Source: a virus. Taken from it: 34,762 bases of DNA. Numbering within the stretch: position 1 is the first letter of the stretch; each line of letters begins with the position of its first letter. Shown here piece by piece: positions 18,680 to 32,260 of this stretch. The stretch spans positions 1 to 34,762 of IMG/VR virus record IMGVR_UViG_3300036832_000699; one strand, given 5' to 3'. The notes under the pieces were generated by a model. The model had not been told where the DNA came from. It made no database searches and saw only the letters and a list, made by a program, of their open reading frames with translations. The translations under genes and the position numbers were made by a program.

Positions 18680-19291
18680 ATGACCGCCCAACTAATCATC
18701 TACCTGGACACAGAGGGCAACCCGCACTGCGAACTTCCCGGTCGTAACGGTATGCGCCAAACGGTTGCGTTGCCCTGCGACTTCGCCTTCAGAAATCCCG
18801 AAATCATGGCGACACTACGGGTTGAAGATAAGATCGAACGGGCCGCCAACGCTAAAGTCGCGGAGGCCAACCGCATCGCCGATGAAAAGCGGCAAGCTGA
18901 GTCAGCGCGTATCGCCCAACTAACGAATGCTGAAATCGCGGCCAAGCGCGCGGCAGCGTGGCAAGCCGCCTACGACTCAGCCACGCCCGAGAAGCAGGCC
19001 ATTATGATGGCCAAGAAAGTCGCAGCGAAGGCCCACCAAGATGAACTCAACGCAGCGCGCGCCAAGGGTCTGTGGCAAGGTATCGCCAGCCCGCACGGCA
19101 TTAAGTTGGCCAACCGCGTTATCGACAAGAAGCGCCGGCCCAACAAACGAATTTCAACTTCCAACGGCGGCACCTACAACCCACGAACAGAAAAGCGTTA
19201 CGACTCCAACGGCAAGCGTATCCGCGAACTCGGTGAGCGCTTCACCAAGCGCGATACCACCGGCGGCAAAGTTATCGACATCAAACTGTAG
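18680..19291 (+). CDS. Helical hypothetical protein with C-terminal VIDIKL tag
   Basis: This 203-aa protein has a short beta start (MTAQLIIYLDTEGNPHCELP), a long Ala/Lys/Glu-rich coiled coil (about 50-130, KIERAANAKVAEANRIADEK) and a basic Gly/Arg/Asn-rich tail (KKRRPNKRISTSNGGTYNPR). It ends GGKVIDIKL, the C-terminal motif shared with four other early proteins here. AGGA lies about 9 bases before the ATG. It follows a 222-base gap with operator-like repeats, so it is probably separately regulated. It may bind DNA through the basic tail; no family is recognised. Confidence 0.75.
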   Translation: MTAQLIIYLDTEGNPHCELPGRNGMRQTVALPCDFAFRNPEIMATLRVEDKIERAANAKVAEANRIADEKRQAESARIAQLTNAEIAAKRAAAWQAAYDSATPEKQAIMMAKKVAAKAHQDELNAARAKGLWQGIASPHGIKLANRVIDKKRRPNKRISTSNGGTYNPRTEKRYDSNGKRIRELGERFTKRDTTGGKVIDIKL

Positions 19292-19299
19292 GAGAGATC

Positions 19300-19500
19300 A
19301 TGACTCTTGTGAACAAGCCAACCGAAACCGAGCGCGCCATTGTGCTCCTGACTCGCGCACTCAGGAAGGCGTCAGTAATCGACTTGTATCGCCTGGAGCA
19401 TTCTGAACCTATGCAAGACCTCCTACGCGACTGCGCTAGAACAGTTGAAAGAATAATAGTTTTAGCCGAACGTCTCAACACAGAGGAACCAAAGCCATGA
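19300..19500 (+). CDS. Small helical hypothetical protein (66 aa)
   Basis: It starts MTLVNKPTETERAIVLLTRA and is predicted all-helical (VERIIVLAERLNTEEPKP at the end). GGAGAGATC-ATG gives a good ribosome site. Its stop overlaps the next ATG in ATGA. No family known. Confidence 0.65.
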   Translation: MTLVNKPTETERAIVLLTRALRKASVIDLYRLEHSEPMQDLLRDCARTVERIIVLAERLNTEEPKP

Positions 19501-19664
19501 ACAACTACCTAACTATCGACCTCAGCATGATAGCGCCTGAGCACATCGAACAAATACGCGACGCTATTGATAAAGAAATCTGCCAAACTGATAGCGATGA
19601 AGTCATCATCGCGCTCCAGAAAGCCCACAAAATCTGCGAAGATTATCTAGTCGAAGCCGGATAA
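19497..19664 (+). CDS. Small hypothetical protein (55 aa)
   Basis: It starts MNNYLTIDLSMIAPEHIEQI and is acidic and helical (VIIALQKAHKICEDYLVEAG). It is coupled to the previous gene by a 4-base ATGA overlap, with GAGGA 10 bases upstream. A terminator follows 25 bases after the stop, closing this three-gene unit. Confidence 0.65.
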   Translation: MNNYLTIDLSMIAPEHIEQIRDAIDKEICQTDSDEVIIALQKAHKICEDYLVEAG

Positions 19665-19688
19665 GCAAGCAAAGCCCACGTCCAAGTC

Positions 19689-19720
19689 GGCCCGCCCGGG
19701 AAAACCCTCGGCGGGCCTTT
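19689..19720 (+). terminator. Rho-independent terminator, plus strand
   Basis: GGCCCGCC / GGCGGGCC form a perfect 8-bp stem with an inner GGG-AAAA-CCC, followed by TTT only. It lies between the 55-aa gene and the AAA+ ATPase gene. Confidence 0.7.
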
Positions 19721-19765
19721 GGGCTGACAGTACAATATCAACCCTAAACCAGGACTCGCGTAATC

Positions 19766-21271
19766 ATGACCGCCTCTGAACTCGAACAAAAGTTATACGA
19801 ACTAATCGGCAAATACCCTGGCTTTGGCATCCGCGGCGATAACGTCAAGCTCTTTGACGATATCATGCGGACACGCCAAAGAAATGCCTTCCCAACGCTA
19901 CCAATAGATGAGTTCAACCATCTATTTACCAAGAAAGTCGAAGAAGCAACAACGCTGATCCGTCAGTGGATGATCGCGAAAGAAATCGACCCCAAGATCG
20001 CCTTCAAATCAAGCGCATACGTCCTACAGAACGCCTACAAAGGCGGCGACAGCTATCTTAAAAGTGTGCGCGATAACGCCGCCAACGAACGCAACCAAAA
20101 ACGCTTTGGTGGCGGGCGCGGTGGCAGACCTATCGACATCGACCTCGACCTTCTCGGTGGCGGCAGTCCCGATCCAATTCCGCAAGCTCCACAGGCTCCG
20201 GCGACCATATCGGCCACGGAAATCCGTAAAGCCGTCGAGCAAATCGCCAATCCCCAAATAAACGAACTCAGCAGCAATTTGCGCCGCGAAGTTACAACCG
20301 TATTAGAGGGCAGCATAAAGAACCTCGAACCGGCGATGAACTGGAAGATCGAGCATGAAGTAAACAAGCTCGAACTTGGCCAGCATATGACGACGCAGAT
20401 AACTCGCATCGCCGAGGAAGCTGCGCGCAAATTAGCCGACTCCCTTATCCCGCGCCGCATCGAAATCGGCAAGCCAAACGGCCCCATCGAACTCGATCGC
20501 GCACCTCGCCACGAAAAGTTCGAAGAAGTCCTCGAATGGCTAATATCAAAATCTCACGTCTATATCGTCGGTCCCAAGGGCACGGGCAAGACCCACATGG
20601 GCAAGCAACTTCGCGACGCCCTTAAGGTCGCACTGGACCGGCCCGACTATGAAGTATACTTCATTGACCAGTCGCTAACAAAGTACGACGTTAAGGGCTT
20701 CAAAGGCCCGACCGGCGAATACGTCGATACGCTGGTTCGGCGCGCAGTTGAGCAAGGCCACTTTCTATATATCGACGAAGGCGATACCTGGGGCGCAGCC
20801 GCGCTAAACTCGCTAAACTCAATTCTCGCGAACGACTTCGGTGCGTTCCCCGACAAAGTAGTTGAGGTTCATCCCGACTTTAGATGTGTACTGGCCGCCA
20901 ACACATTCGGCCAAGGCGCTGACCGTCAATATGTAGGCAGAAATCCGCTCGACGCCGCCAGCCTTGATCGCTTTAGCTTCGTAGTCGTAGATTACGACCG
21001 TAAGATGGAAGCCCAACTCTACGGCGTTGGAGCATGGACCCAATACGTTTGGCGCGTTCGCGACGCCTGCATCCAGCTAAAGCGTGAAGACCTTATGCCG
21101 TCAATGCGGGCAATTTCCGCTGGAAACGAAGCTCTCGCCAACGGTATGGACGTTGAGAAAGTCGCCAGTGCCCGCCTGTGGCGCGGAACGGCTCCCGACG
21201 TGGTTGCCAAGATCAAAGAGATCGCAGGAGAGCCGCCAAAAAGGCTGACTCCGATCCGTGAGGTGGCATAA
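19766..21271 (+). CDS. MoxR/CobS-type AAA+ ATPase
   Basis: This 501-aa protein has a helical N-terminal unit (1-120) ending in a Gly/Arg stretch and PIDIDLDL (122-129), an internal look-alike of the early C-terminal tag. A Pro/Gly linker and a helical region (150-230) follow. The AAA+ domain has Walker A GPKGTGKT (269-276), Walker B FLYIDEGD (333-340), sensor-1 AANTFGQG (377-384) and DAASLDRF with a candidate arginine finger. The last features match MoxR/CobS-type ATPases, which usually work as chaperones with a VWA-type partner. The next gene overlaps by one base and is probably that partner. AGGA lies about 10 bases before the ATG. Target unknown. Confidence 0.85.
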   Translation: MTASELEQKLYELIGKYPGFGIRGDNVKLFDDIMRTRQRNAFPTLPIDEFNHLFTKKVEEATTLIRQWMIAKEIDPKIAFKSSAYVLQNAYKGGDSYLKSVRDNAANERNQKRFGGGRGGRPIDIDLDLLGGGSPDPIPQAPQAPATISATEIRKAVEQIANPQINELSSNLRREVTTVLEGSIKNLEPAMNWKIEHEVNKLELGQHMTTQITRIAEEAARKLADSLIPRRIEIGKPNGPIELDRAPRHEKFEEVLEWLISKSHVYIVGPKGTGKTHMGKQLRDALKVALDRPDYEVYFIDQSLTKYDVKGFKGPTGEYVDTLVRRAVEQGHFLYIDEGDTWGAAALNSLNSILANDFGAFPDKVVEVHPDFRCVLAANTFGQGADRQYVGRNPLDAASLDRFSFVVVDYDRKMEAQLYGVGAWTQYVWRVRDACIQLKREDLMPSMRAISAGNEALANGMDVEKVASARLWRGTAPDVVAKIKEIAGEPPKRLTPIREVA

Positions 21272-22392
21272 TGACATATCCATCAGGTTGGCCCATCTGG
21301 AAAATAAAACTCGGCATTCAACCGGACGCCGAACCTCCGCCACCACCACCGCCCGAGCCTGAGGACTCAGAAGACGAACCCGAAGAAGAGTTCGAACCCG
21401 AAGAATTTGAACCCGAGGAAGACGAGGAAGACATCGACGACGAGCCTGACCCTGAAGGCGAAGATATCGGCGACGATCTGTTCGAGTTCGAACTTGGCAA
21501 CCTGCCAAAAGTCACAAGCCAACTCGAACCCCTCGACAACCGCGAATTTCAATCGTGGCACGAGTTCGTACAGTCGGCAATCGACGACGGCCTCTACGCC
21601 TGGAAGCACACTCGCGCCAGCCATGCCACCGACCGTGACATGATACACGGTAGCAATCTGCCGTGGAACGGAACGGCGACTTGGGAAGAATGCGTCAAGA
21701 TGGCAACCCGCACAGGTTGGCCCGAGGGCAGACAGATGCTAGAGGAAAGCCTCGCTATCGTGCGGCCCAAGCCGGAACCATATCGGTCAATCGAAATGAG
21801 CGTTGCAGGCGCATTTCCAATGGTTCCGAACTATTGTGCGGGCGACCCAGAGTGTATGGTAATCGACCCCGGCAGTGATATGCGCCAAAGCAATCCCATA
21901 ATTCGCATCGACTTCAACAATTGGACCCACGCTGGCGTGAGGCCCGAGGACATGATGCTGCGCGGCGCAGCAGTGGTTAGCTTAGCCGAAACCCTAGAAA
22001 GACATGGTTACTCAACCGAGCTTCGCATCGTTGGCAATAGCCGCAGCGGCGGAACCGACTTCAGATACAGCATCGTATTCAAGAAAGCCGGCGAAATCCT
22101 AGACCTCGACCGTGCTGCATTCGCCATCGCCCATCCAGCCACGATGCGCCGACTCTGTTTCGCCATATTGGAACAGCATCCAAACGCCGAGGGAAGCTTC
22201 TCCAGTGGCTACGGATACCCATTACATCAACCCAACGATCCAACCTCTGGCCAACCCGGCGGCGCAATCTATATCAAAGCGTCCGTTGGCCGCGAAACGC
22301 CCGAGTCCGCCCGAGCGGCAGTCGCTAAGGCTGCCGAAACTCTATTAGGCAACATCCACGCCAGCGAGGAAACCGGAGGCAACGATGACTAA
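21271..22392 (+). CDS. Acidic partner protein of the AAA+ ATPase (DUF7192-like)
   Basis: This 373-aa protein has a proline run and a strongly acidic low-complexity region (about 21-75, almost all E, D and P), a conserved-looking block (NREFQSWHEFV, LPWNGTATWEECVKMA, GWPEGR; about 90-155) and an alpha/beta C-terminal domain (SVAGAFPMVPNY; CMVIDPGSDM; IIRIDFNNWTHAG; RGAAVVSLAETLERHGYSTE). The order resembles phage DUF7192-type proteins that accompany MoxR-type ATPases; this is from memory. The C-terminal fold could be VWA-like, with CobT as a parallel (acidic linker plus VWA). GAGG lies 7 bases before the ATG; one-base overlap with the ATPase gene indicates co-translation. Confidence 0.7.
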   Translation: MTYPSGWPIWKIKLGIQPDAEPPPPPPPEPEDSEDEPEEEFEPEEFEPEEDEEDIDDEPDPEGEDIGDDLFEFELGNLPKVTSQLEPLDNREFQSWHEFVQSAIDDGLYAWKHTRASHATDRDMIHGSNLPWNGTATWEECVKMATRTGWPEGRQMLEESLAIVRPKPEPYRSIEMSVAGAFPMVPNYCAGDPECMVIDPGSDMRQSNPIIRIDFNNWTHAGVRPEDMMLRGAAVVSLAETLERHGYSTELRIVGNSRSGGTDFRYSIVFKKAGEILDLDRAAFAIAHPATMRRLCFAILEQHPNAEGSFSSGYGYPLHQPNDPTSGQPGGAIYIKASVGRETPESARAAVAKAAETLLGNIHASEETGGNDD

Positions 22393-22582
22393 CAGCGACT
22401 GCATATGGCAGCTATTCAAGGCTGGCCGCCTGACCTGTATAGACTGTATTAAATACAGAATGACTCGCAAAGAGTTTGAACGTCGGTGGGGCGCACCAGT
22501 CGACTGGCGCAACGCAGCCGAGCTACACTATTCAACGCTGGTTAAGTTACAAACACGTCCGCGAAAGAGGAACAAGCCATGA
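22385..22582 (+). CDS. Small basic hypothetical protein (65 aa)
   Basis: It starts MTNSDCIWQLFKAGRLTCID and contains a C-x2-C pair (CIDC) and a basic tail (LQTRPRKRNKP). It overlaps the previous gene by 8 bases, with GGAGG 5 bases before the ATG. A DNA-binding role is possible; no family known. Confidence 0.6.
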   Translation: MTNSDCIWQLFKAGRLTCIDCIKYRMTRKEFERRWGAPVDWRNAAELHYSTLVKLQTRPRKRNKP

Positions 22583-22713
22583 GACACTTCCACAAAATCC
22601 GCAAGTTCGAGTCCCCATACGGCAAGAAGTTCGTCTTGCCAACCTATCTCTACCTGCGCCTATTTCCACGCCACAGCTATCCTCTCAACTTTTACAAACT
22701 ACCTTGGCGATAA
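22579..22713 (+). CDS. Tiny basic aromatic protein (44 aa)
   Basis: It starts MRHFHKIRKFESPYGKKFVL and ends YKLPWR. It is very basic and Tyr/Phe-rich. It is coupled to the previous gene by ATGA, with GAGGA 8 bases upstream. Unknown function. Confidence 0.55.
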   Translation: MRHFHKIRKFESPYGKKFVLPTYLYLRLFPRHSYPLNFYKLPWR

Positions 22714-22725
22714 GGAACCCATACC

Positions 22726-22950
22726 ATGTCACACCACAGACATAAACCAAAAATAGCCGCTCCACCAATCGAACCATATATCTGCGCCTACAATATCGAC
22801 GGTGGTGGCATTCTATACTTCAAATGCGAAGCAGATAATATCGACCACGCCAAAGAACAACTAACAAACACACAGCCAAACGCATACATCTTCATTTGCC
22901 TACCCTATGCGCGCTGCGACCAAGCAACCCAAGACAAAGTACAGTCATGA
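22726..22950 (+). CDS. Small hypothetical protein, paralogue of the gene at 23611
   Basis: This 74-aa protein contains YICAYNIDGGGILYFKCEAD and HAKEQLTNTQPNAYIFI, closely matched by the 53-aa protein at 23611-23772 (YLCSYFV...YYFKCHADDEAHAKEQLSN). The conserved core is a strand, YFKC, and a helix with HAKEQL. AAGGA lies 11 bases before the ATG. Its stop overlaps the next gene in ATGA. Function unknown. Confidence 0.65.
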   Translation: MSHHRHKPKIAAPPIEPYICAYNIDGGGILYFKCEADNIDHAKEQLTNTQPNAYIFICLPYARCDQATQDKVQS

Positions 22951-23357
22951 AACCCCAAACCAAAACCGCTATTGGTGCCGCTGGACTACTCCTAGGAGTA
23001 GTCACTATCTCTGTGAGCGTTGCACTGGCTATAACTCCAGACGACCAAACATGGTATGTCATAAGGAATGACGAAACCTGCCCAACAATGACCGACTCAG
23101 AGATAAACCAAAAAATAATCGAACAACCTTACGGCAATAAAGTAAAGGACGTATCCTATAGAGTCCCACAACCAAATCTCGACGGCCTATCGGATAAGCA
23201 GAAAGCAGGCATAAAACTCAAGATCCTGGACGTTTCCCGCGACGACTTGTACGCGGGCCGCCTCCACTTTATCGTTGAATACGCCGCAAGCTACGACCTA
23301 TGCAAATTCATGTCCCGAAAAGGCTTCGGCAAAATCCAACCACTTTGGGACAAATGA
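22947..23357 (+). CDS. Membrane-anchored hypothetical protein (136 aa)
   Basis: Starting at the ATG that overlaps the previous stop, the protein begins MKPQTKTAIGAAGLLLGVVT with one hydrophobic helix (to about 30), a signal anchor or uncleaved signal. The rest is soluble (TWYVIRNDETCPTMTDSEIN; LHFIVEYAASYDLCKFMSRK) with two Cys, so a periplasmic domain is likely. It is joined by ATGA overlap to another membrane-anchored gene. Envelope modification or superinfection exclusion are guesses. Confidence 0.6.
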   Translation: MKPQTKTAIGAAGLLLGVVTISVSVALAITPDDQTWYVIRNDETCPTMTDSEINQKIIEQPYGNKVKDVSYRVPQPNLDGLSDKQKAGIKLKILDVSRDDLYAGRLHFIVEYAASYDLCKFMSRKGFGKIQPLWDK

Positions 23358-23614
23358 CCACAGGAAATTCCATAATAATCGCTTTAGCAATCGCCATAAC
23401 CTTAGGTGGCGCAATGCTAATTCACGACGGCATACAACTTCGATCCAACTACATCGAAGCCCGAAAAGAAAGCTGTGAAAATACAACCGACCCAAAGAGT
23501 TGCGAAACGATGTTCGACAAAGCCGTCTGCCGCGCATCCAAACGCGACCCAACAACGTTCTACCAAAAGCTAACTCTTAGTTTCGCAACCACCTGTAAGG
23601 ACAAGGACCAATGA
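23354..23614 (+). CDS. Membrane-anchored Cys-containing protein (86 aa)
   Basis: It starts MTTGNSIIIALAIAITLGGA with one N-terminal membrane helix. The exported part holds four Cys (ESCENTTDPKSCETMFDKAV; then C in VCRAS and TTCKDKDQ), enough for two disulphides. It overlaps genes on both sides by ATGA. Together with the gene before it, it forms a pair of small envelope proteins in an otherwise cytoplasmic early cassette. Function unknown. Confidence 0.6.
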   Translation: MTTGNSIIIALAIAITLGGAMLIHDGIQLRSNYIEARKESCENTTDPKSCETMFDKAVCRASKRDPTTFYQKLTLSFATTCKDKDQ

Positions 23615-23772
23615 CCGAGTATCTATGTTCCTACTTCGTCAACACCGGCAACCACGAAAGTCAATACTATTTCAAATGCCATGCCGACGACGAGGCTCAC
23701 GCCAAAGAACAACTGTCAAACGCGGAACCGCGCGCAACCGACATCTTCTGCGAAATCTACTCAAAGGACTAA
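23611..23772 (+). CDS. Small hypothetical protein, paralogue of the gene at 22726 (53 aa)
   Basis: It starts MTEYLCSYFVNTGNHESQYY and contains YYFKCHADDEAHAKEQLSNA, matching the 74-aa protein at 22726-22950. The start overlaps the previous stop in ATGA; AAGGA lies 6 bases upstream. Local duplication with the two membrane genes in between is the simplest origin. Confidence 0.65.
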   Translation: MTEYLCSYFVNTGNHESQYYFKCHADDEAHAKEQLSNAEPRATDIFCEIYSKD

Positions 23773-23777
23773 CCATC

Positions 23778-24041
23778 ATGAAGCAAGCCGCCAAACTTAG
23801 CGACATCCAGCTCCTAAGCATCCGTTGTCAGCAAAAGGCAACGCCGCACAGAGTTCCCGACTTCAAGAAACTCAAATCCCTCGTCGACGGTGATCCGGAG
23901 ATCACCGGATCAATGGTATTCCTCGAAGAACACAACACAGGCTACGACGGCGTCCTATATCGTTACATACTGCAAGTCGCCGACACGAAAATCCAATTCC
24001 AGGTCGACCTTCTACCCGGCGACCTAACCAACGAAGAATAG
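23778..24041 (+). CDS. Hypothetical protein (87 aa)
   Basis: It starts MKQAAKLSDIQLLSIRCQQK and ends DLLPGDLTNEE with a TAG stop. The middle has beta strands (GVLYRYILQVADTKIQFQVD). AAGGA lies 9 bases before the ATG, inside the end of the previous gene. A hairpin follows the stop. No family known. Confidence 0.6.
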   Translation: MKQAAKLSDIQLLSIRCQQKATPHRVPDFKKLKSLVDGDPEITGSMVFLEEHNTGYDGVLYRYILQVADTKIQFQVDLLPGDLTNEE

Positions 24042-24051
24042 AGTTTCGCAG

Positions 24052-24085
24052 ACAGGGGACGGAAACAACAAAAATCGTCCCCTGT
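24052..24085. repeat. Perfect 10-bp inverted repeat after the 87-aa gene
   Basis: ACAGGGGACG / CGTCCCCTGT with a 14-base A-rich loop. There is no T-run afterwards, so it is an atypical terminator or an RNA-processing hairpin. Confidence 0.65.
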
Positions 24086-24135
24086 GTGCGGCACTCTAAC
24101 AGAGGTCGCGTAACCCAACCAAAAGGAACCGTGTT

Positions 24136-24486
24136 ATGAAAGCCCAAGAACTCCAGACCCTACAAACTATGATCGACTTCAGCCGAGCCCTGGAAATCCA
24201 GAAGCCCGGCTGCGACCCCCAACTCAGCATCCGAGTCCGCGCAACCAGCAATCGCATGGACAACGAAATAACCACCAAGGCCGAACTAAGCTGCCGCTAT
24301 TGGGACGGCAACGAGTTCCACACCATCGCCGGTGCCGACTTCGACACCATCATCGCCGAAGTCAACCGAAGGCTTGGTTTCACCGACCAACAGACTATTG
24401 CCCTCGACAAACTACAAACTGCGTTGAAGGCTCTCCCAGCACCAGAGCCGACGTTCGACGAACTCTTTGAGTACCTAGCATCATGA
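24136..24486 (+). CDS. Hypothetical protein (116 aa)
   Basis: It starts MKAQELQTLQTMIDFSRALE, has a beta middle (PQLSIRVRATSNR; AELSCRYWDG) and a helical C-terminus (DKLQTALKALPAPEPTFDEL). AAAGGA lies 10 bases before the ATG. The stop overlaps the next ATG. Unknown family. Confidence 0.65.
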   Translation: MKAQELQTLQTMIDFSRALEIQKPGCDPQLSIRVRATSNRMDNEITTKAELSCRYWDGNEFHTIAGADFDTIIAEVNRRLGFTDQQTIALDKLQTALKALPAPEPTFDELFEYLAS

Positions 24487-24698
24487 CCCGCGCCGAACAA
24501 CTCGCCGAAGCCTATATCCTAACCTCAATGGTGGACCACTATATGATCGGAGTCGTAGAGCCAGTTACCTTTGACGACCTTGAAGCCGCCAAGGCAATCC
24601 TTATCGACTACGACAACGCCGAAAACAACAAAAACAACATCATCAACCTTGCCCTCGACCTCGTCGAACAGCAAGAACGAAAGGAGAGGTTCCGATGA
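24483..24698 (+). CDS. Small helical acidic protein (71 aa)
   Basis: It starts MTRAEQLAEAYILTSMVDHY; all-helical, acidic, ending EQQERKERFR. No strong ribosome site; coupled to the previous gene by ATGA and to the next by ATGA. Confidence 0.6.
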   Translation: MTRAEQLAEAYILTSMVDHYMIGVVEPVTFDDLEAAKAILIDYDNAENNKNNIINLALDLVEQQERKERFR

Positions 24699-24865: not shown

Positions 24866-25032
24866 CAGACCTCAGTATCCGCGAGGGTTGTCAGGTCGTG
24901 TTCCCTCGCGGCGGACAAGACGGTGAGTGTCCGACAGCGGTTACGGCGTCAAGAGACATGGTTCCGTAACCAACCCGACAATAACCCCGTCAGCCGGTGG
25001 ACCGATTTATTCCTGTAGGTCGCGACCGGCGG

Positions 25033-25224: not shown

Positions 25225-25243
25225 CCAACCAAGGACTCTTACT

Positions 25244-25555
25244 ATGAAAATCTGGTTAATCGACTCCCGAAGCCGAAGCGCAACAAAAAAGCGCTTCCTA
25301 TATTCTTGGCCCACCGTAACCAAACAGACCATAAAAGCCGTCTGGAAAGTCGTCCTCAAAGAAGAAGTCACCAAAAATGACCGCGGTGAATACGCATACC
25401 TATACGATTATCCCAAGGGCCTATCTGACACTGACAAACTAGCCGCCACCAAAATTTTCCACGACTATTGGGCCGAATACGGCTGGGACCTAATACTCGT
25501 GGAAGACGACGCCATCCCAACAAGCGACATGATCCAGAAAGGACCCACCAAATGA
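25244..25555 (+). CDS. Hypothetical protein (103 aa)
   Basis: It starts MKIWLIDSRSRSATKKRFLY with AAGGA 9 bases upstream. It contains WPTVTKQTIKAVWKVVLKEE and YDYPKGLSDTDKLAATKIFH and ends MIQKGPTK. Mixed alpha/beta, no motif recognised. Its stop overlaps the HIRAN gene start in ATGA. Confidence 0.65.
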   Translation: MKIWLIDSRSRSATKKRFLYSWPTVTKQTIKAVWKVVLKEEVTKNDRGEYAYLYDYPKGLSDTDKLAATKIFHDYWAEYGWDLILVEDDAIPTSDMIQKGPTK

Positions 25556-25935
25556 CCATCAAAACCCGAACCTATCCTATCGTCGGTGCCCATTTCCGGC
25601 CCCCCGCAGAGATCCTTCTAAAAGTTGCTCCCGTCGGAACCCGGCTATGGCTAACCCCTGAGCCTATGAACCCATTCGACCCGAACGCCATCGCCGTCCA
25701 CTGCGACTTGGACGGCCCCCTAACTCTCAACAAAGTCCGCGAAGCCCTCTTAGCTTCCGGCAATACCGACTGGGTAAATAAGTCCTATATTCAAATCGGC
25801 TACCTTCCCAGACCTATCGCCAAGTCGCTAAAAGAGCGCGGCTTCGACAGCGAACACTCAGCCGAACTCTACTACCCATTCGGATCAAACCTTCCTCATG
25901 CCAAATTCGACTTCGACGACCCCGACAAGGAATAA
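25552..25935 (+). CDS. Stand-alone HIRAN-domain protein
   Basis: This 127-aa protein matches the HIRAN pattern: YPIVGAHFRPP (8-18), TRLWLTPEPMNPFDPNAIAV (30-49, the hallmark E-P-x-N-P-x-D-x-N-A-I-x-V) and IGYLPRPIAKSL (82-93). In eukaryotic HLTF the domain binds 3' DNA ends; in bacteria and phages it is usually linked to DNA repair or damaged-DNA recognition. Here it is a separate small protein with an acidic tail (FDFDDPDKE). AAAGGA lies 8 bases before the ATG. It probably acts in phage DNA replication or repair with the nuclease/ATPase pair at 32.5-34.8 kb. Confidence 0.85.
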   Translation: MTIKTRTYPIVGAHFRPPAEILLKVAPVGTRLWLTPEPMNPFDPNAIAVHCDLDGPLTLNKVREALLASGNTDWVNKSYIQIGYLPRPIAKSLKERGFDSEHSAELYYPFGSNLPHAKFDFDDPDKE

Positions 25936-25939
25936 ACCC

Positions 25940-26194: not shown

Positions 26195-26380
26195 ATGCAG
26201 ATCGAACTGGATATCCAAGAACGCGAAGTCATCAAACAATACGCCAAACAAATGTTTGCTCTCTTCCGTCGCGAACTCAACGACCGTAACGCAACCGGCG
26301 CTGACGCCATGAGTTTGGCGTTCTGGGAACGTCTCGCCACCAAAATGGACCCTAACAGAAAGAGCCAAAACCATGCCTAA
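26195..26380 (+). CDS. Small helical protein (61 aa)
   Basis: It starts MQIELDIQEREVIKQYAKQM with AAAGGA 7 bases upstream and directly follows the previous stop. It is helical and charged, ending MDPNRKSQNHA. The end overlaps the next gene by 8 bases. Confidence 0.6.
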   Translation: MQIELDIQEREVIKQYAKQMFALFRRELNDRNATGADAMSLAFWERLATKMDPNRKSQNHA

Positions 26381-26858
26381 CATCATAACAATAGACCCAA
26401 CAACCCAAACCATCGCCAACCTCGCCGCCCCAACCGACTCCGACCAATTCTTACAGCTGACTCACGACTACATCGGCAGCCGCGACCTAGATCACGGCAC
26501 CATCGCCGTCAATTGGCCCCGCGCCGGTTACAGACTGTGCATAATCGTCTATGGACAAGGACTCCTCGGTGGTCCCCAAACTACAACCCAGTACTTCGCC
26601 ATCAATCGTCAACTCTACAACGGACGTGCTATACTATACGCTGCCGACCCCCACGGTGAAACGACTTCCATCTCGCAAACTCTTATCGACATCCTTAGTG
26701 AGCACGCCCACCTAACATGGATAAGTTCTCCCGAAGCCGTCGAAAACCTAATAACCCTCGGTGAAATCGACCGCCCCATAACCACTATCAACGACGCCAT
26801 AATTTGGCAATGGTCAAACCCAGAGAAAGAGACCCAAGAAGAAGGTGGCCTCCGATGA
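26373..26858 (+). CDS. DUF3846-like hypothetical protein (161 aa)
   Basis: It starts MPNIITIDPTTQTIANLAAP and has YRLCIIVYGQGLLGGPQTTT, YFAINRQLYNGRAILYAADP and HGET. This order (beta start, central glycine turn, 'N-G-x-A-x-x-Y-x-x-D-x-x-G') recalls the DUF3846 proteins of phages, a weak recollection. No catalytic motif. Overlaps both neighbours, the next in ATGA. Confidence 0.6.
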   Translation: MPNIITIDPTTQTIANLAAPTDSDQFLQLTHDYIGSRDLDHGTIAVNWPRAGYRLCIIVYGQGLLGGPQTTTQYFAINRQLYNGRAILYAADPHGETTSISQTLIDILSEHAHLTWISSPEAVENLITLGEIDRPITTINDAIIWQWSNPEKETQEEGGLR

Positions 26859-27055
26859 TGACCCACGAAGAAGCAATCGAACGAGCCAATAAAATCTGGC
26901 CCAACACAAAGTTCATCCTAACACCCGACCGTCATACCGACCGTTGGTGGGTCGATCTCGTACCCCTATCGGGGCGCGAAACCCACATGCTCGACGGCAA
27001 CGGTCACACCTGTTGCCACGAACAATGCGCGAGACTAGAGCGCAAAAGGACATGA
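26855..27055 (+). CDS. Small hypothetical protein with Cys/His cluster (66 aa)
   Basis: It starts MMTHEEAIERANKIWPNTKF. The C-terminal GHTCCHEQCARLERKRT has a C-C-H-x2-C cluster that might bind metal. AAGGTGG lies about 8 bases before the ATG, which overlaps the previous stop in ATGA. Confidence 0.6.
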   Translation: MMTHEEAIERANKIWPNTKFILTPDRHTDRWWVDLVPLSGRETHMLDGNGHTCCHEQCARLERKRT

Positions 27056-27057
27056 CA

Positions 27058-27369
27058 ATGGAAGACGACGACATCAACCGTCACCCTGGCATCAATAGCG
27101 ACCTAATAAGAATCTACTTCGAGAGAGGCGACATAAAGTCCCTAACCTCTCTATTCGACTTCCTCCGCCGAACAACCCTTCGAGCCGAAAGCCTAAGCAG
27201 AGCTTATCAGTCTCAAATGGTCGAACTCCATCGACGCCTCGAAGACATACGAATGGGCGCTAACGTAAAGAAGAAACAACCGATAGAACCAACGAGTCCC
27301 GAACCCCCGCAAACCAAACCGACGGTAGCGCGAAAGCCCAAAGGAAAAGTTATCGACATCGACCTCTAA
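27058..27369 (+). CDS. Hypothetical protein with C-terminal VIDIDL tag (103 aa)
   Basis: It starts MEDDDINRHPGINSDLIRIY at the ATG with AAAAGGA 7 bases upstream; the ATG at 27052 overlaps the previous stop but touches the ribosome site. A helical domain (about 1-65, SLTSLFDFLRRTTLRAESLS) is followed by a Pro/Lys/Thr linker and KGKVIDIDL at the end. This is the clearest example of globular part, flexible linker and terminal tag. Function unknown. Confidence 0.7.
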   Translation: MEDDDINRHPGINSDLIRIYFERGDIKSLTSLFDFLRRTTLRAESLSRAYQSQMVELHRRLEDIRMGANVKKKQPIEPTSPEPPQTKPTVARKPKGKVIDIDL

Positions 27370-27382
27370 ATCGGAGAACATT

Positions 27383-27517
27383 ATGACAAACATAACTCGC
27401 CTAGCTTACGCCAACGCTATCAGCCGACAACCAAAGCGCATATGGCTGCGGCCGTGGTGGCCCGCCATAATCATCTTGGCCTACCTACTGGGCATACTAA
27501 CGGCGATAGTGACTTGA
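27383..27517 (+). CDS. Tiny single-pass membrane peptide (44 aa)
   Basis: It starts MTNITRLAYANAISRQPKRI and has WLRPWWPAIIILAYLLGILT as a membrane helix near its C-terminus. The basic segment before the helix predicts the N-terminus inside. GGAGAACATT-ATG is a good ribosome site. A non-coding palindrome cluster follows. Confidence 0.65.
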   Translation: MTNITRLAYANAISRQPKRIWLRPWWPAIIILAYLLGILTAIVT

Positions 27518-27531
27518 CCCAAGTTGTAAAC

Positions 27532-27575
27532 GGAAAGCGGCATACAATCTGGCTGCCGGAAGGTATGCCGCTTCC
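27532..27575. repeat. Long palindrome containing the 32-bp dispersed repeat, copy 2
   Basis: GGAAAGCGGCATAC / GTATGCCGCTTCC pair over 13 bp with one bulged A around a 17-base centre. Positions 27538-27569 match 17507-17538 at 27 of 32 sites. Further GTATGCC(G) copies follow at 27600 and a GTATGC at 27641. The 177-base gap (27518-27694) holds no other feature. Confidence 0.7.
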
Positions 27576-27694
27576 AGCCATCCCCCGAAAAAAAAGAGGG
27601 TATGCCGCCAAAAAGCTCTTGCACCCCTCCGCGCATCATGGTATGCTTACCGCACAATAGGCAAGAACCATACGGACCGTAATAGGAACCCCCA

Positions 27695-28039
27695 ATGGAC
27701 CTCAACCCAACTACTAATCCACAAGCCCAGCAAGCCTTAAGTCGCAAATACGGCAACGCCAGCATAATATTACTCCCTCTCGACAACGGCGACATTGCCG
27801 TATTCGACCGCAGCTTCCAATTACACACTATCTTAGATAGTTCTGACGAATCAATCTCTTTCGACCAAATAGCATCCCTAAGCAAAATCTTTTTCGCCAA
27901 ATTAACCTCCCGCGCAGCCGAAGCCAAGTTCTATGGCGAACCAAACGACCGCGCCTACGCTACCGACCTCAAAGCCAATCGCACACCCAAATTCGAGAAA
28001 CGAGCAACCCGCGGCACCGTTATCGACATTACCCTCTGA
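27695..28039 (+). CDS. Hypothetical protein with C-terminal VIDITL tag (114 aa)
   Basis: It starts MDLNPTTNPQAQQALSRKYG with AGGA about 7 bases upstream. It has a small beta domain (ASIILLPLDNGDIAVFDRSF), a helical part and a basic linker (KANRTPKFEKRATRG) before VIDITL. It follows the palindrome cluster and so may be the first gene of a new transcript. No family known. Confidence 0.7.
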   Translation: MDLNPTTNPQAQQALSRKYGNASIILLPLDNGDIAVFDRSFQLHTILDSSDESISFDQIASLSKIFFAKLTSRAAEAKFYGEPNDRAYATDLKANRTPKFEKRATRGTVIDITL

Positions 28040-28063
28040 GAGAAGAAATGAAAAGGAAGGCCA

Positions 28064-28144
28064 ATGTTTCGACGCCACGAGCCAGAAATCATCCTGGCGA
28101 CAGTGCTTCTCGTGTGCCTGCTCGCAATAGCCAGCCACCTATGA
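28064..28144 (+). CDS. Micro-ORF: 26-aa membrane peptide
   Basis: It starts MFRRHEPEIILATVLLVCLL and ends AIASHL. AAGGAAGGCCA-ATG is a good ribosome site, and the stop overlaps the next micro-ORF in ATGA. A competing frame starting at 28048 (GAGAG upstream) would skip this peptide and give a 57-aa protein ending in the zinc ribbon. Both readings are possible. Confidence 0.4.
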   Translation: MFRRHEPEIILATVLLVCLLAIASHL

Positions 28145-28221
28145 AACGCTACTGTCCGTATTGTGACGACAACACAACCGACAACCTATGCTGCCCGCAA
28201 TGCGGACACCAAACACAATAA
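28141..28221 (+). CDS. Micro-ORF: zinc-ribbon peptide (26 aa, or 57 aa from 28048)
   Basis: It starts MKRYCPYCDDNTTDNLCCPQ and ends CGHQTQ. The C-P-x-C ... C-P-x-C-G-H pattern is a textbook zinc ribbon. The 26-aa version has no ribosome site of its own and would rely on coupling with the membrane peptide; the 57-aa version starts at the ATG at 28048 in the same frame with GAGAGAAGAA upstream. The metal site is clear, the start is not. Confidence 0.55.
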   Translation: MKRYCPYCDDNTTDNLCCPQCGHQTQ

Positions 28222-28236
28222 GTGAGGACTCATAAC

Positions 28237-28524
28237 ATGAGCGAACTAACAATAACTCGCAAAATCTCTTTCGAAGAAGCAGTCGACAAAGAAGCTCGCC
28301 ACATCATAACCCAAATGATCGAAGCTGAGTTGGACAAACAAAACCTCCCCCTGCCAAAAGAATCAAGCCTAAACATCCACATCGACCAAGTCCTGAAATC
28401 GCGTCCCGACATCATCGAAAAAGCCAAACAGCGCGTGGACGCCCGACTCGACGCCCACACCGAAAGCCTCCGCCAAATCGGCGTCAAGCTTGAAATAATC
28501 CGCGCAATCGAGATAACCCTCTAG
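28237..28524 (+). CDS. Helical hypothetical protein ending AIEITL (95 aa)
   Basis: It starts MSELTITRKISFEEAVDKEA with AGGA about 10 bases upstream; an in-frame GTG at 28222 lacks a ribosome site. It is helical and charged. The last residues RAIEITL resemble the VIDITL tag with one acid swapped and no glycine linker, so this may be a variant or chance. Stop is TAG. Confidence 0.65.
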   Translation: MSELTITRKISFEEAVDKEARHIITQMIEAELDKQNLPLPKESSLNIHIDQVLKSRPDIIEKAKQRVDARLDAHTESLRQIGVKLEIIRAIEITL

Positions 28525-28536
28525 GAGCGTTACACA

Positions 28537-28749
28537 GTGCAAGAAGGTTGGACAATTCAGGCAATCAGAGCCGCGGTACGAGACGGAAGGCTGGGAAAGA
28601 CATTCAGCCCGTCCGACGTAAATCGCGCCATCAAGATTACCTACGCCGACATATTCCTGCCAAAACATCGCGTGGGCAACCCCGGAAAGCGTTTCACAGA
28701 ACTATTTGTACGACTCAGCCAGCGACCCTCAACTTACAGTCTCCGATGA
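28537..28749 (+). CDS. Small basic protein, possible winged-helix DNA binder (70 aa)
   Basis: The start is GTG with TAGGAG about 9 bases upstream. The sequence (GWTIQAIRAAVRDGRLGKTF, SPSDVNRAI, FLPKHRVGNPGKRFTELFVR) has the shape of a winged helix: two helices, then a basic loop and strand. A DNA-binding function is likely. Its end overlaps an ORF on the other strand (28715-28960). Confidence 0.65.
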   Translation: MQEGWTIQAIRAAVRDGRLGKTFSPSDVNRAIKITYADIFLPKHRVGNPGKRFTELFVRLSQRPSTYSLR

Positions 28750-28960
28750 CAACCTTATTGGCGTTTCCCGCAATGTGCGTCCATAAAGCCAAAGCTGCCC
28801 GGACCATGTCGGTCTGCTGCTTGGCAACATTGCCCCCTCCAAGCCCAACGGACGGCGTAACGGTCCGGTCCCCCGTTGCTGGGTGGCGAGGAGCCACGCC
28901 AGTAGCCAACTGCACTGCAAATATGGCATCAGCAGTACAGTCAAAGTGTGTGCATAGCAC
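28715..28960 (-). CDS. Possible antisense ORF (81 aa), doubtful
   Basis: In the 337-base gap (28750-29086) the minus strand holds a frame reading IFAVQLATGVAPRHPATGDR ... QQTDMVRAALALWTHIAGNA, more protein-like than the plus frames. It starts with GTG and has no clear ribosome site, and overlaps the end of the plus-strand gene by 35 bases. The competing plus frame (28746-29051, MTTLLAFPAM...) is coupled by ATGA but has Cys-rich, shadow-like composition. Either could be real; nothing else is seen in the gap. Confidence 0.3.
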   Translation of the reverse strand: MLCTHFDCTADAIFAVQLATGVAPRHPATGDRTVTPSVGLGGGNVAKQQTDMVRAALALWTHIAGNANKVVIGDCKLRVAG

Positions 28961-29086
28961 CCGCAGGCACAGCTATATCTCGGTATGGGGCCAGCAACAC
29001 GTTGCCATATGCGACGCTGGCCTCTCCACGACAAAAAAAGACAAACAGTGACCGCAATCTAACCCCCAAACAAAGGAAACTTTGTT

Positions 29087-30091
29087 ATGCGTGACCCCAA
29101 GACCGAAGCCTACTTAAATCGTAGTAAGAGCAAGTGGGAATACAAAGCTAAGGTTGACTTTGACAAAATAGACCTCAAACATAGTGCCGAAAACCCCGCG
29201 CGACTTGCTGCCAAAATTGACGAGGATCGCGCCATACACTACGGACTTGAGATGGAAGCTGGTGTCGAATTTCCCGCCATAGTATTGCTAACTCCTAGTG
29301 ACAACGGCAAGTTCCCTTATGACGTTGCGACTGGGATGCACCGTATCGAGGGCGCACTTTGCGCCCGAAAGACCGGCTTCGACGCTTACGTCGTCACCGA
29401 ACCTGATGCGTATCGTCGTGAAGTCATCATTCGCCAACTCAATACCCTAGAGGGTCGTGGCGTCACGGTTCGTGAAAGCATCTTGCAGGTCATTGCTCTT
29501 CACGAGAAGTTTCCCGAAAAATCCCTGACAGCCCTATCTAAAGATTGGGGACTCAAATTCAGTGCAATTTCGGCTGCGTGGCGTGCTGAAGCGGCGCGCA
29601 AACGAGCCCTAAACGCAGGATACAATCTCGACCGTATGAGAGTTGGGCAAACTGTAGCAACAATGCTGAATACAATTCACAGTGACCGAGTATTCACAAA
29701 AGTCCTCGAACTCATCCAAGAACACAACCCAAACGCTACTATTATCGACGAACTCTGCAAAAGGCTCCGCTCCGTTCGCGACGAGAACGACGCCATCGGC
29801 ATAGTTAACCAGTATCGCGAAGGAGAAATTGAAAAAGCTGAGCGCACCCGCGCCCGCCACGGTCGCGTCAATACGATACCCGCAACCAAACTTATCGCGA
29901 ACGCTCGACGCTTCAACAACGCTGTCGCCAAGGGACTCGAACATCTATACCTGTCGTCACTTACGACTCCCGCAACCCGAACGGCTGTTGTTACTCTCGA
30001 AGAACTTATCGCCAACGCCAAGCGCGTTCTAAATGAAGTCGAACGCATCGAGAAGCTCCGCAACGTCGACAAAGACCGAAACGTAGCCTAA
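29087..30091 (+). CDS. ParB-like protein (ParB/sulfiredoxin fold plus HTH)
   Basis: This 334-aa protein shows a ParB-type N-terminal fold: NPARLAAKIDED (36-47), FPAIVLLTP (62-70), YDVATGMHRIEGALCARKTG (78-97, corresponding to the G-x-x-R box) and AYVVTEPDAY. An HTH-like region follows (SLTALSKDWGLKFSAISAAW, 146-165), then a long helical C-terminus with basic stretches. ParB-fold phage proteins act in DNA binding, transcription or nicking; plasmid-style partition is not suggested, as no ParA is present. AAAGGA lies about 10 bases before the ATG. It is followed by a zinc-ribbon protein, perhaps a partner. Confidence 0.8.
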   Translation: MRDPKTEAYLNRSKSKWEYKAKVDFDKIDLKHSAENPARLAAKIDEDRAIHYGLEMEAGVEFPAIVLLTPSDNGKFPYDVATGMHRIEGALCARKTGFDAYVVTEPDAYRREVIIRQLNTLEGRGVTVRESILQVIALHEKFPEKSLTALSKDWGLKFSAISAAWRAEAARKRALNAGYNLDRMRVGQTVATMLNTIHSDRVFTKVLELIQEHNPNATIIDELCKRLRSVRDENDAIGIVNQYREGEIEKAERTRARHGRVNTIPATKLIANARRFNNAVAKGLEHLYLSSLTTPATRTAVVTLEELIANAKRVLNEVERIEKLRNVDKDRNVA

Positions 30092-30127
30092 AAATAAACC
30101 CCCAAAGAGTCCAAAGAGGCTTTCTCT

Positions 30128-30826
30128 ATGAGTTGGCAATCCGACATATACAAAATCCTGCTGGACGGACAGTTACACCAACTGTCTGACCTTTTTTCAG
30201 TCGTAGAACCCCAAATCAAGATGCATCACGCGTACCGACGCGTAGCCGCAGCCCGCCTAACTGAGCGTCCCGAGGAAAAGATGGGCACAGTTGAGGCAAA
30301 ATGGAACCTATTTGCCGTGACTCTCAGTCAGATGCAAATTGAGTGCAACTCATCTAACAAGAACTATTTTCTACGCGATCCCAAGAACTCTGTCAAATTA
30401 AAATCACCTGGAAGCTGCCCTAAATGTGGGACCCCAGCATACCGTATCGGCTGGTATGGCAGCAACAAGACGTCCGCGCTACATTGTAAAAACTGCCAAA
30501 TAAAGTTTGCAGCGACACTAAGCCCTAGACCCTACAAAAGAACCAAACCCAAAGTTGAACCCAAACCTGAACCTAGAGCTGAAGTCATCAATTACGTCGA
30601 TCATGGCTTCCACGAGAACCTATTTATGACTATCATGGAAGCTGCCAAATTGGGCGAAGACCTACACCTAAGTCCAACCGACGTAGCTGTGCTGTCATGT
30701 GTTGGCGACATTCGCGCCAGGGCCTTAAAAGAGGGCCACAGGATAACCGAAACTGACTTCCATCGTCCGCCCGCGTTAGGTAACAGTAACATAGTCCTGC
30801 TTAAAAGAAAAAAGGAATTGCGATGA
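30128..30826 (+). CDS. Zinc-ribbon hypothetical protein (232 aa)
   Basis: It starts MSWQSDIYKILLDGQLHQLS, an N-terminal helical part like a winged helix (about 1-75). A zinc ribbon follows: C97-P-K-C100-G ... C120-K-N-C123, then a Lys/Pro linker (KRTKPKVEPKPEPRAE) and a helical C-terminus (LFMTIMEAAKLGEDLHLSPT). The combination suggests a DNA-binding regulator. It lies 36 bases after the ParB-like gene; its stop overlaps the next start in ATGA. No family is recognised. Confidence 0.7.
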   Translation: MSWQSDIYKILLDGQLHQLSDLFSVVEPQIKMHHAYRRVAAARLTERPEEKMGTVEAKWNLFAVTLSQMQIECNSSNKNYFLRDPKNSVKLKSPGSCPKCGTPAYRIGWYGSNKTSALHCKNCQIKFAATLSPRPYKRTKPKVEPKPEPRAEVINYVDHGFHENLFMTIMEAAKLGEDLHLSPTDVAVLSCVGDIRARALKEGHRITETDFHRPPALGNSNIVLLKRKKELR

Positions 30827-31095
30827 CCCTTGCAGCCGACAACGCGAGAAACATCCTTCGGGCAGCACTTGCAGCCGACATTGGTATCATTGTCGATATC
30901 GAAGCCGATCCGACTATGATACAACCCGCGTCCCGAGCCAAACAGATACTTTACCGTTTCAAACAAGAAGACCACGACTTCAAAGACCTAACTATTCGTT
31001 TTGACAAAGACTCACCCGACAAAGCCCTACGAATAATCAAAATCAGTTCCCTCGAACGACTTACTGAAAAACTTGGAGTCGATGACGATGCCTAG
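30823..31095 (+). CDS. Hypothetical protein (90 aa)
   Basis: It starts MTLAADNARNILRAALAADI and has an alpha/beta pattern (GIIVDIEADPTMIQPASRAK; LTIRFDKDSPDKALRIIKIS). GGAATTGCG precedes the ATGA overlap start. The stop is TAG. Unknown family. Confidence 0.65.
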   Translation: MTLAADNARNILRAALAADIGIIVDIEADPTMIQPASRAKQILYRFKQEDHDFKDLTIRFDKDSPDKALRIIKISSLERLTEKLGVDDDA

Positions 31096-31387
31096 AATAT
31101 ATGAAGACAAGACCCTCGCCCGAATTTGCGTTCGGCTTTGGGCTGACGACTGTGAATTTCTGCGTAACCTTAGCCGAGCCAGAGAACTCGGGCTAAACCT
31201 GCTTATTCGCCAGATAATTCACAGCTACGTTGCCCACGTCAAAGACCGTGAACACCAAGAACTGAACAAGCTTGACGACATAAAACCCTTGGACGCCATA
31301 GACCTGGAAAATCTCGAACTAGACTTTGAAGAAGAACCACAGCCTGAACCCGAACCAAAGGGTCAAGTTATCGACATAACCCTCTAA
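31088..31387 (+). CDS. Hypothetical protein with C-terminal VIDITL tag (99 aa)
   Basis: It starts MPRIYEDKTLARICVRLWAD at the ATG nine bases after GGAG; ATGs closer to the site are less likely. A helical domain (DDCEFLRNLSRARELGLNLL, IRQIIHSYVAHV) reminiscent of ribbon-helix-helix-type proteins is followed by an acidic Pro/Glu linker (EEEPQPEPEP) and KGQVIDITL. It overlaps the previous gene by 8 bases. Function unknown. Confidence 0.7.
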   Translation: MPRIYEDKTLARICVRLWADDCEFLRNLSRARELGLNLLIRQIIHSYVAHVKDREHQELNKLDDIKPLDAIDLENLELDFEEEPQPEPEPKGQVIDITL

Positions 31388-31401
31388 CGAAGGACAACAC
31401 A

Positions 31402-31941
31402 ATGTCAGACGACGTTGAAATCACAAACCTGGAAACCCAAATCGGCGTACCAGCCTTTCACGACGTTGAGCCAATCCAAGGACCAAGAACCCAAAGCCTC
31501 TTGCGTCAATGGATCAAGCTTCAAGGTCTAAACGAAGAGGCTGTCCGAAAGGCCAGTCCAAAACTCTTGGTTGCAGCTTACCGTAGCAAAGGCTACCTAG
31601 AGACTTGGAAAGACCGAACCAATACAACAACTAACCAAGTTCTCGAAGCCACAATCGCCCAGGAAAAGCTTGACGACGACGACGAACCAGCGCCTACGGC
31701 GCAAGAGTCAGAAGCGCCTGCGGCACCAAGAAAGTCAGTTGAAGAACTCACAATCCAACACCTAAATGGAATAATCCGGCGAATAAACTATATCAAAAAC
31801 TACGGCCTCAGCGAAGCCAAACTTAACCCGGTCGTAAATCGTATCCGGGCTAAATGCCAAGAACTCGAAAATAGTCTCCTTGATCGCGAAATCACTTCAA
31901 GCGATCTGTGGGGAATGACTCCAAAAGATCCGCCATTCTAA
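31402..31941 (+). CDS. Hypothetical protein ending in an SSB-like DPPF tail (179 aa)
   Basis: It starts MSDDVEITNLETQIGVPAFH with AAGGA 9 bases upstream. Two helical domains (SLLRQWIKLQGLNEEAVRKA; HLNGIIRRINYIKNYGLSEA) are separated by an acidic Ala/Pro/Glu linker. It ends GMTPKDPPF, which resembles the C-terminal tail (DDDIPF) by which SSB recruits partners, but no OB fold is seen. Unknown family. Confidence 0.65.
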   Translation: MSDDVEITNLETQIGVPAFHDVEPIQGPRTQSLLRQWIKLQGLNEEAVRKASPKLLVAAYRSKGYLETWKDRTNTTTNQVLEATIAQEKLDDDDEPAPTAQESEAPAAPRKSVEELTIQHLNGIIRRINYIKNYGLSEAKLNPVVNRIRAKCQELENSLLDREITSSDLWGMTPKDPPF

Positions 31942-31951
31942 AGGAACCGCA

Positions 31952-32260
31952 ATGTCTGACCCAACTAACCCATTAGCAGCGGCGCTTCGCGCAAGCCTTC
32001 GGATTGTCGAAGACCCCACAATCGACCCCGATAGCCCGCTCAGCGAAGCTACCGTCGACAGCGTTAACATCCTACTCGACGAAATAAACAATGCACTCGC
32101 CGAGGGAATGCCCGAACGCATTACCGACGACAAGCTCGCCCAACTTGTCGACATATACCGCGCCCAAGCCTTGACCTGGGCCACGACCGAAGAAGACAAA
32201 AAGAACAAGCCCAGAGGCAAGCGCGCCCCAAAGGGCAACATCATTGACATAACCCTCTAA
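31952..32260 (+). CDS. Hypothetical protein with C-terminal IIDITL tag (102 aa)
   Basis: It starts MSDPTNPLAAALRASLRIVE with AAAGGA 6 bases upstream. A helical domain is followed by a basic linker (KKNKPRGKRAPKG) and NIIDITL. The linker here is basic while that of the 99-aa protein is acidic, so only the tag itself is shared. Function unknown. Confidence 0.7.
   Translation: MSDPTNPLAAALRASLRIVEDPTIDPDSPLSEATVDSVNILLDEINNALAEGMPERITDDKLAQLVDIYRAQALTWATTEEDKKNKPRGKRAPKGNIIDITL

Follow-up and report, generated by a model that had tools for sequence, protein, structure and literature searches.

The window analysed here is the viral contig IMGVR_UViG_3300036832_000699 from IMG/VR, a linear stretch of 34,762 bases with virion genes on the minus strand between about 0.2 and 17 kb and an early gene cluster on the plus strand from about 17.8 kb to the contig end. 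Five plus-strand early proteins end in nearly the same short peptide, hereafter the tag. They are a 203-residue protein ending in GGKVIDIKL (18680..19291; tag codons 19271-19288), a 103-residue protein with a linker rich in proline and lysine ending in KGKVIDIDL (27058..27369; tag 27349-27366), a 114-residue protein ending in RGTVIDITL (27695..28039; tag 28019-28036), a 99-residue protein with an acidic Pro-Glu linker ending in KGQVIDITL (31088..31387; tag 31367-31384), and a 102-residue protein of family F2 ending in KGNIIDITL (31952..32260; tag 32240-32257). The initial annotation had reported these C-termini, and all five are found in frame at 19291, 27369, 28039, 31387 and 32260. Its two weaker relatives are present as well: AIEITL closes a 95-residue protein of the widespread F8 family (28237..28524, plus strand; tag 28504-28521), and EAIAITL closes a 191-residue protein upstream of the terminase genes (16423..16998, minus strand). 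Homologues of both are tagged in related phages. A similar internal motif, PIDIDLDL, had been noted in an AAA+ ATPase and does occupy residues 122-129 of that protein (nucleotides 20129-20152, plus strand). Its D126 is invariant in five relatives, while the surrounding sequence differs by phage (DVLDLD, INIDLDD, SLLDTND, GIDLDKPNPIDLL).

The strict pattern [VI][IV]D[IV]xL forms the C-terminus of 5 of the 58 called window proteins, compared with a mean of 0.0005 for shuffled proteins, and has no internal copy in 9,990 positions of window proteins. A chance origin of the shared C-termini is excluded. The protein bodies had been described as unlike one another, and in a profile comparison of tag-stripped bodies that left out those at 31088 and 31952, they are mutually unrelated save for two merging pairs, 28237 with F8 (a profile match of the body without its tag, E about 1e-12) and F13 with F92. 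The linkers before the tags are divergent and flexible, as seen from their composition and from the AlphaFold2 (AF2) model of the F2 protein at 31952. This model has confident helices at residues 35-50 and 59-84, followed by a linker and tag in low-confidence coil, with a predicted local distance difference test (pLDDT) score of 52-55 in the tag region, which is what an exposed linear motif would be expected to give. A profile search of the PDB with F2 returned nothing beyond weak trigger-factor-like helix matches.

A search with the terminase found relatives of the virion genes only (L004-L008 at 57-84% identity, more distant ones at 54-62%) and did not recover the early region, and single-protein scans with the AAA+ ATPase or the exonuclease gave no relatives. 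An alignment of AAA+ homologues was needed, and it led to four contigs with the window's early gene order: G001 (70,983 bases), G002 (22,594), G003 (57,999) and G004 (92,987), whose exonucleases are 46-50% identical to that of the window. These phages keep the bodies of the tagged proteins and exchange the tag as a set. The theme VIDITL of the window is replaced by [VI][LM][DE]I in G001 (AVEI, VLEI, ILEI, VLDI three times, IMDI), AIDIDL in G002 (AIEIDL, VIDIEL, AIDIDLDL, AIDIDLDSLL, AIDIELG, EVEIDL, AVDIEL), LDLDL in G003 (VLDLDL, ILDLDL, LDLDLDLDL, LELDLDL, AMDLDL) and A[IL]DL in G004 (LAIDL twice, LALDL, LAMDL, DEIDL, AALDL). Across five families in five phages (the window and G001-G004), the mean tag score is 23.9 between different families of the same phage, compared with 16.1 for the same family in different phages and 15.8 when both differ, a result that none of 100,000 permutations reached. 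The tag thus carries the identity of the phage and hardly any of the gene family. In a scan of C-terminal similarity over all loci, the window and G001-G004 take ranks 1-5, and phages outside this clade that have the AAA+ gene together with its neighbour DUF7192 show no comparable shared C-termini. The strict pattern is absent from the C-termini of two Rhizobium phages whose AAA+ genes are related. Scanning IMG/VR at the DNA level for the strict window tag gave seven contigs, none of them with a true tagged gene, because the relatives use other variants. The tag is real, strictly C-terminal, carried on unrelated bodies and replaced set-wise from phage to phage; the C-termini of homologues are kept or swapped in concert rather than being random, in keeping with the selection on the peptide that the initial annotation had proposed.

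The replacement can be followed family by family. Homologues of the 18680..19291 protein end in DDAIEIDL in G002 (22076-22594) and LAIDL in G004 (67096-67698), and the genes at 24996 in G001 and 22072 in G003 were counted as members by position. For 27058..27369, the endings are SQVLDI (G001), AIDIDLDL (G002), LDLDLDLDL (G003) and LSLALDL (G004); for 27695..28039, AQVLDI (G001), AIDIDLDSLL (G002) and DDLAIDL (G004); and for 28237..28524, QVLDI, NAIDIELG, AMDLDL and ALDLDIDP. The homologues of 31088..31387 in G001-G004 have no tag. Family F3 (30823..31095, plus strand) is untagged in the window and tagged in G002 (EVEIDL), G004 (DEIDL) and many contigs of a wider group (ADLLGDD). Relatives of the minus-strand protein at 16423..16998, with bodies just 35-37% identical, occur in L005 (ending EAIEVTL) and L007 (EAIDVVVELTPEQPQS), and its positional equivalents end in AVMEL in G001 and AALDL in G004. 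Two further tag-like sequences were seen outside these families. One closes a late-region G001 protein that resembles homing endonucleases (57582-58127, minus strand); its ending, PGIVLDI, is identical to the G001 tag, but the gene score is low and the ending may be due to chance. The window protein at 15236-15850 (minus strand) and its G004 homologue (63209-63814, minus strand) contain MIDVTP and IIDVTP, respectively, near their C-termini.

Differing third codon positions had been taken initially as a sign that the peptide, and not a copied DNA end, is what selection preserves. In the window itself this argument is weakened, as identical tag residues share the same codon in 46 of 67 cases, where the codon usage of early genes predicts 26.8 (Monte Carlo p=0.0008), and there are exactly four copies of GTTATCGACAT, every one within a tag. 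Some copying of DNA ends within the window lineage is thus likely. The argument is upheld in the relatives, where same-codon counts are 19 against 16.1 expected in G001 and 14 against 12.1 in G002, with a slight excess in G004 (11 against 7.8) and an excess in G003 (15 against 8.8); codon sharing near expectation in the first two, and nearly so in G004, indicates that the peptide itself is maintained. If the shared ends were instead a copied DNA element, such as an operator, a recombination site or a translation-coupling signal at gene junctions, with the peptide incidental, the GTTATCGACAT copies found in tags only and the codon sharing of the window would be accounted for, as would the fact that every tag end directly precedes the start of the next gene. 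Yet G001 and G002 keep the peptide with codon sharing at expectation, the peptide theme holds over 80 distinct tails whose codons differ, and every instance of the motif is in frame and C-terminal. We regard such an element as very unlikely to be the explanation. The codon patterns argue for selection on the peptide, with copying of DNA ends as one probable route by which a variant spreads within a genome.

We extended the comparison to a wider group of phages by retrieving 80 loci with an exonuclease alignment and another 80 with an F8 alignment, with few contigs in both sets. Other lineages have other endings, which are again common within a phage. In L215, three unrelated families end in VTLEDLGL, ITLEDLGL and ITLEDLGL; L173 has TIEDLGL and TIGDLSL, L241 has SLADLGL three times, and DELLSGLD is found together with DELLEGLE in several phages. 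C-termini resembling the phage's own F2 tag number 49, compared with 4.3 expected from control segments, and in the F8-retrieved set 130 pairs of C-termini are similar, against 23 for controls. Similarity between families within a phage reaches z=12.2 over the nine C-terminal residues, compared with 3.7 and 0.8 over control segments taken upstream; the relatedness of the phages makes these values look more significant than they are. F2 is present in 148 contigs with 82 distinct tails of seven residues, 50 of which contain [hyd]x[DE][hyd], as opposed to 1 of 85 control 7-mers. Among named phages, the cultured relative Kuura, a Caulobacter phage whose genes are mostly without matches (PMC9959647), has the endings LSIDDLLSTL and LNIDDLFSE (AELNIDDLFSE in longer form) and encodes its F2 protein at L028:10440-10766, and in ctMlz233, an uncultured phage from Manatee Spring, the endings are DADELLAGLE and DTDALLAGLE. 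A search of cultured phages in INPHARED gave no match for F8 or F13.

The tags are accompanied by a replication and recombination cassette that comprises F8, F3, F6, F2, a PD-(D/E)XK exonuclease, a RecA-like ATPase, a DUF669-like single-stranded DNA-binding protein (SSB), a ParB-methylase, a UDG/exonuclease, PolA and DUF3987. The exonuclease is encoded at 32501..33481 in the window (plus strand; phrog_1218/phrog_69), with relatives at 42-50% identity in 80 IMG/VR loci, and the F2 gene usually lies directly upstream of it. The RecA-like P-loop ATPase (AAA_24) starts at 33745 and is cut by the contig end at 34762 (plus strand); its PF13479 match (E 7e-5) is under the cut-off in the window, and the assignment is clear in G001; the family has 80 members. 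With the contig broken off within this gene, the window misses most of the replication module. Among 73 F8 loci, the exonuclease is present in 71, the RecA-like ATPase in 70 and the SSB in 66. In the two loci lacking the exonuclease, the F8 gene is near the locus end, and the F8 scan does not separate tags from exonuclease. A SprT-like protease (PF10263) in G003 (15104-15493) also bears a tag, VLDLDL, which fits a destination linked to DNA replication.

Virion genes show a different association. G003 has another set of terminase and capsid genes and keeps its tags, and the terminase relatives G006-G008 (terminase 62% identical) have neither the module nor tags. Tags therefore follow the replication module and not the virion module. 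This disfavours the proposal that the tag directs early proteins into the capsid, in the manner of encapsulin cargo-loading peptides or the T4 capsid-targeting sequence; LTIEDL bears a loose resemblance to encapsulin cargo peptides, and we consider the proposal highly improbable. The protein pair next to the tagged genes deserves the same scrutiny. The MoxR/CobS-like AAA+ ATPase (19766..21271, plus strand; phrog_249 4e-38, PF07728) is followed by its partner gene for a DUF7192 (PF23822) protein (21271..22392, plus strand), and tagged proteins might dock on the two as on a MoxR/vWA-like remodeller, considering that the AAA+ protein has a similar internal motif throughout the window clade, in a local sequence that depends on the phage. 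Outgroup phages with the pair show no shared tags, however, and the pair is absent from most tag-bearing phages of the exonuclease group, whose loci mostly lack the AAA+ gene, so that the ATPase is not required for tags. We rejected the pair as a general partner, and docking on it appears highly improbable. The pair itself (19766-22392) recurs in many phages, including those of Staphylococcus, Mycobacterium and Rhizobium.

The likely explanation, in our view, is that the tag serves as a short linear docking peptide, specific to each lineage, by which the proteins bind one shared putative partner. Carried by several early proteins of unrelated sequence, each time behind a flexible linker, it would enter the same pocket of a common partner, which would bring the tagged proteins to a single site or make them compete for it. 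The set-wise change of tags suggests co-evolution with a partner whose pocket changes too and which would probably be phage-encoded, and copying of DNA ends may help a new tag variant to spread within a genome. The docking signal foreseen by the initial annotation is strongly supported as far as a short peptide under selection is concerned, given its C-terminal position, unrelated bodies, concerted swap and disorder in one model. Of the partners then suggested, one linked to replication agrees best with the data, a clamp is conceivable from its likeness to the T4 and Pol IV peptides, with no phage clamp detected, and the protease and phage-compartment readings found no support. With less certainty, we place the putative partner in the replication/recombination complex, since the tags travel with the module of exonuclease, RecA-like ATPase, DUF669-like SSB, ParB-methylase, UDG and PolA, not with virion genes, and since a SprT-like protease is tagged.

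Several observations weigh against a docking peptide with a single partner. Some homologues have no tag, namely F3 in G001 and F6 in most phages, and just 16 of 73 distinct F8 tails contain the motif. In the window, the excess of synonymous-codon sharing reveals a contribution from DNA copying. The linkage to the module in the wider group arises partly by construction, because the loci were retrieved with the exonuclease or F8, which belong to the same cassette, and many of these contigs are fragments. A covariation test singled out no core protein as tag partner: partial distance correlations (mirror-tree) with the tags are 0.19 for the exonuclease, 0.25 for the ParB-methylase in a smaller set and 0.04-0.10 for the SSB, too weak to decide.

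The closest known mechanism, by analogy, is the clamp epitope of phage T4, where gp43, gp55 and gp33 share exchangeable hydrophobic-acidic C-termini on divergent linkers that bind the gp45 clamp (PMC2988020). The tags resemble this epitope in being short hydrophobic and acidic extreme C-termini common to unrelated phage proteins with divergent linkers before them. In T4 the epitope is on three proteins and the clamp is known, whereas the phages studied here have up to seven or so each and no detected clamp, their polymerases are untagged (PolA C-termini of G001-G004: SEIKIA, GIRIN, GIRLQ, GIRIAA), and the motif is swapped set-wise between phages. With an untagged polymerase and no clamp detected, membership in the T4 clamp-epitope family is not established. 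Cellular clamps offer a second comparison, with the beta-clamp consensus QL[S/D]LF and the QLVLGL C-terminus of Escherichia coli Pol IV (PMC3716654). The tags share the hydrophobic spacing of these peptides at the C-terminus (xLDLxL or LGL), and the IDI, LDL and DLGL endings show the L-[S/D]-L spacing. Their highly conserved Gln is absent here, and the tags are lineage-specific.

These likenesses are the basis for reading the tag as a sliding-clamp-binding peptide that tethers early proteins to DNA through the host beta clamp or an unrecognised phage clamp. The window tags, as [V/A]-[IL]-D-[IL]-x-L, are one residue (Q) off Q-L-[S/D]-L-x-L, wider-group tags end in LGL as Pol IV does (PMC3716654), and T4 provides the precedent of common interchangeable C-termini on divergent linkers (PMC2988020). 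The tagged SprT-like protease of G003 also suits this reading. Eukaryotic SPRTN is recruited by PCNA. However, just 3 of the 82 distinct seven-residue F2 tails have Gln at one of their first four positions, and none of the window tags does, a lack already noticed initially. Among tag-bearing records, the beta-clamp families PF00712 and PF02767 matched 0 of 17 and 0 of 19, respectively, even though PF02767 did match the positive control Tunturi_4; a phmmer search with the Tunturi_4 clamp found no phage clamp, and the T4-type clamp PF02916 had no match in 18 records, in a search without a strong positive control and with a window that ends before the replication genes. Set-wise changes between phages are not what a conserved host pocket predicts, and the PolA genes have no tag. 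We consider clamp binding unlikely on balance.

The bacterial SSB C-terminal tip (DDDIPF) is, like the tag, an acidic and hydrophobic C-terminal peptide after a disordered linker, except that one protein there has many partners and here many proteins presumably have one; no protein in the window ends in IPF, the tags ending in ITL, IDL or IKL, and the SSB-like protein of G001 ends in IYGVKR. The acidic C-terminal tail of T7 gp4, which binds basic patches of gp5 (PMC5997990), similarly docks onto a phage replisome protein, but is longer and is no short epitope common to many small accessory proteins. In RPA70N, a groove of the oligonucleotide/oligosaccharide-binding (OB) fold takes up short acidic-hydrophobic motifs of many unrelated proteins (PMC10479964), though these motifs are eukaryotic, about 20 residues long, not strictly C-terminal and mutually dissimilar. 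By this model, the phage SSB with its DUF669-like OB fold could itself be the hub whose single groove receives many unrelated partners. It is conserved across the group (69 contigs by one count; 66 of 73 F8 loci), its AF2 model is good (pLDDT 87) with Foldseek matches to PrgE and phage DUF669 proteins, and RPA70N does bind mixed acidic and hydrophobic motifs (PMC10479964). Against this, the SSB-like protein has a net charge of -5 and is no obvious acceptor for acidic tails, its covariation with the tags is not above that of other core proteins, and RPA70N motifs are internal rather than strictly C-terminal. This assignment, too, we judge to be quite unlikely. A role as a C-terminal degron, with the tag setting when early proteins are turned over, would agree with a hydrophobic C-terminal peptide on many small early proteins. 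An invariant acidic residue would not be expected of a degron, and the endings LDI, LDL, LGL, GDF, GDD and GLE are, to our knowledge, unlike known ClpXP or Prc C-degrons; we give this explanation very little credence.

Elsewhere in the early region, two short proteins at 22726-22950 and 23611-23772 are paralogous, and 25552-25935 encodes a weak HIRAN-domain protein (PF08797, E 1e-4) of a family common to the wider group. The HIRAN-family early protein of L173 (3796-4221) has the C-terminus ELDDEIPF, close to the bacterial SSB tip. The virion region, all on the minus strand, contains a protein with tetratricopeptide repeats and a heptosyltransferase-like (Glyco_transf_9) domain (166-1557), two collagen-like proteins with G-P-P repeats that are likely tail fibres (1558-3345 and 5203-7227), and a portal fused to an inorganic pyrophosphatase-like domain (7232-9739; PF04860 plus PF18823). 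The protein at 10501-11283 ends, after a poly-proline stretch, in a PEP-CTERM-like sorting signal (PF07589, E 8e-4, just under the cut-off), which is unusual in a phage. Terminase homology (12323-13767) runs about 290 bases upstream of the first ATG, GTG or TTG in an open frame, and the G001 alignment suggests a CTG start near 13767.

C-terminal docking peptides common to several proteins are already known; what is new is their set-wise replacement over many proteins and phages. A broader picture, which we offer tentatively and to which we assign somewhat less than an even chance, is that in a large group of uncultured tailed phages, represented by the 148 contigs with F2 and by Kuura in culture, each phage marks a variable selection of accessory early proteins with a C-terminal peptide code of its own. 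One phage-encoded hub of a new kind would read this code, and code and reader would change together, insulating the phage from its relatives and its host. If so, many phage proteins of unknown function would share a recruitment code, with the tag bearers joining one complex, and the tag would be a direct route to grouping and placing such proteins. Replacement of an unlinked peptide as a set across many genes would also be a clear natural case of partner-driven co-evolution, one that the cultured relative Kuura makes testable at the bench.

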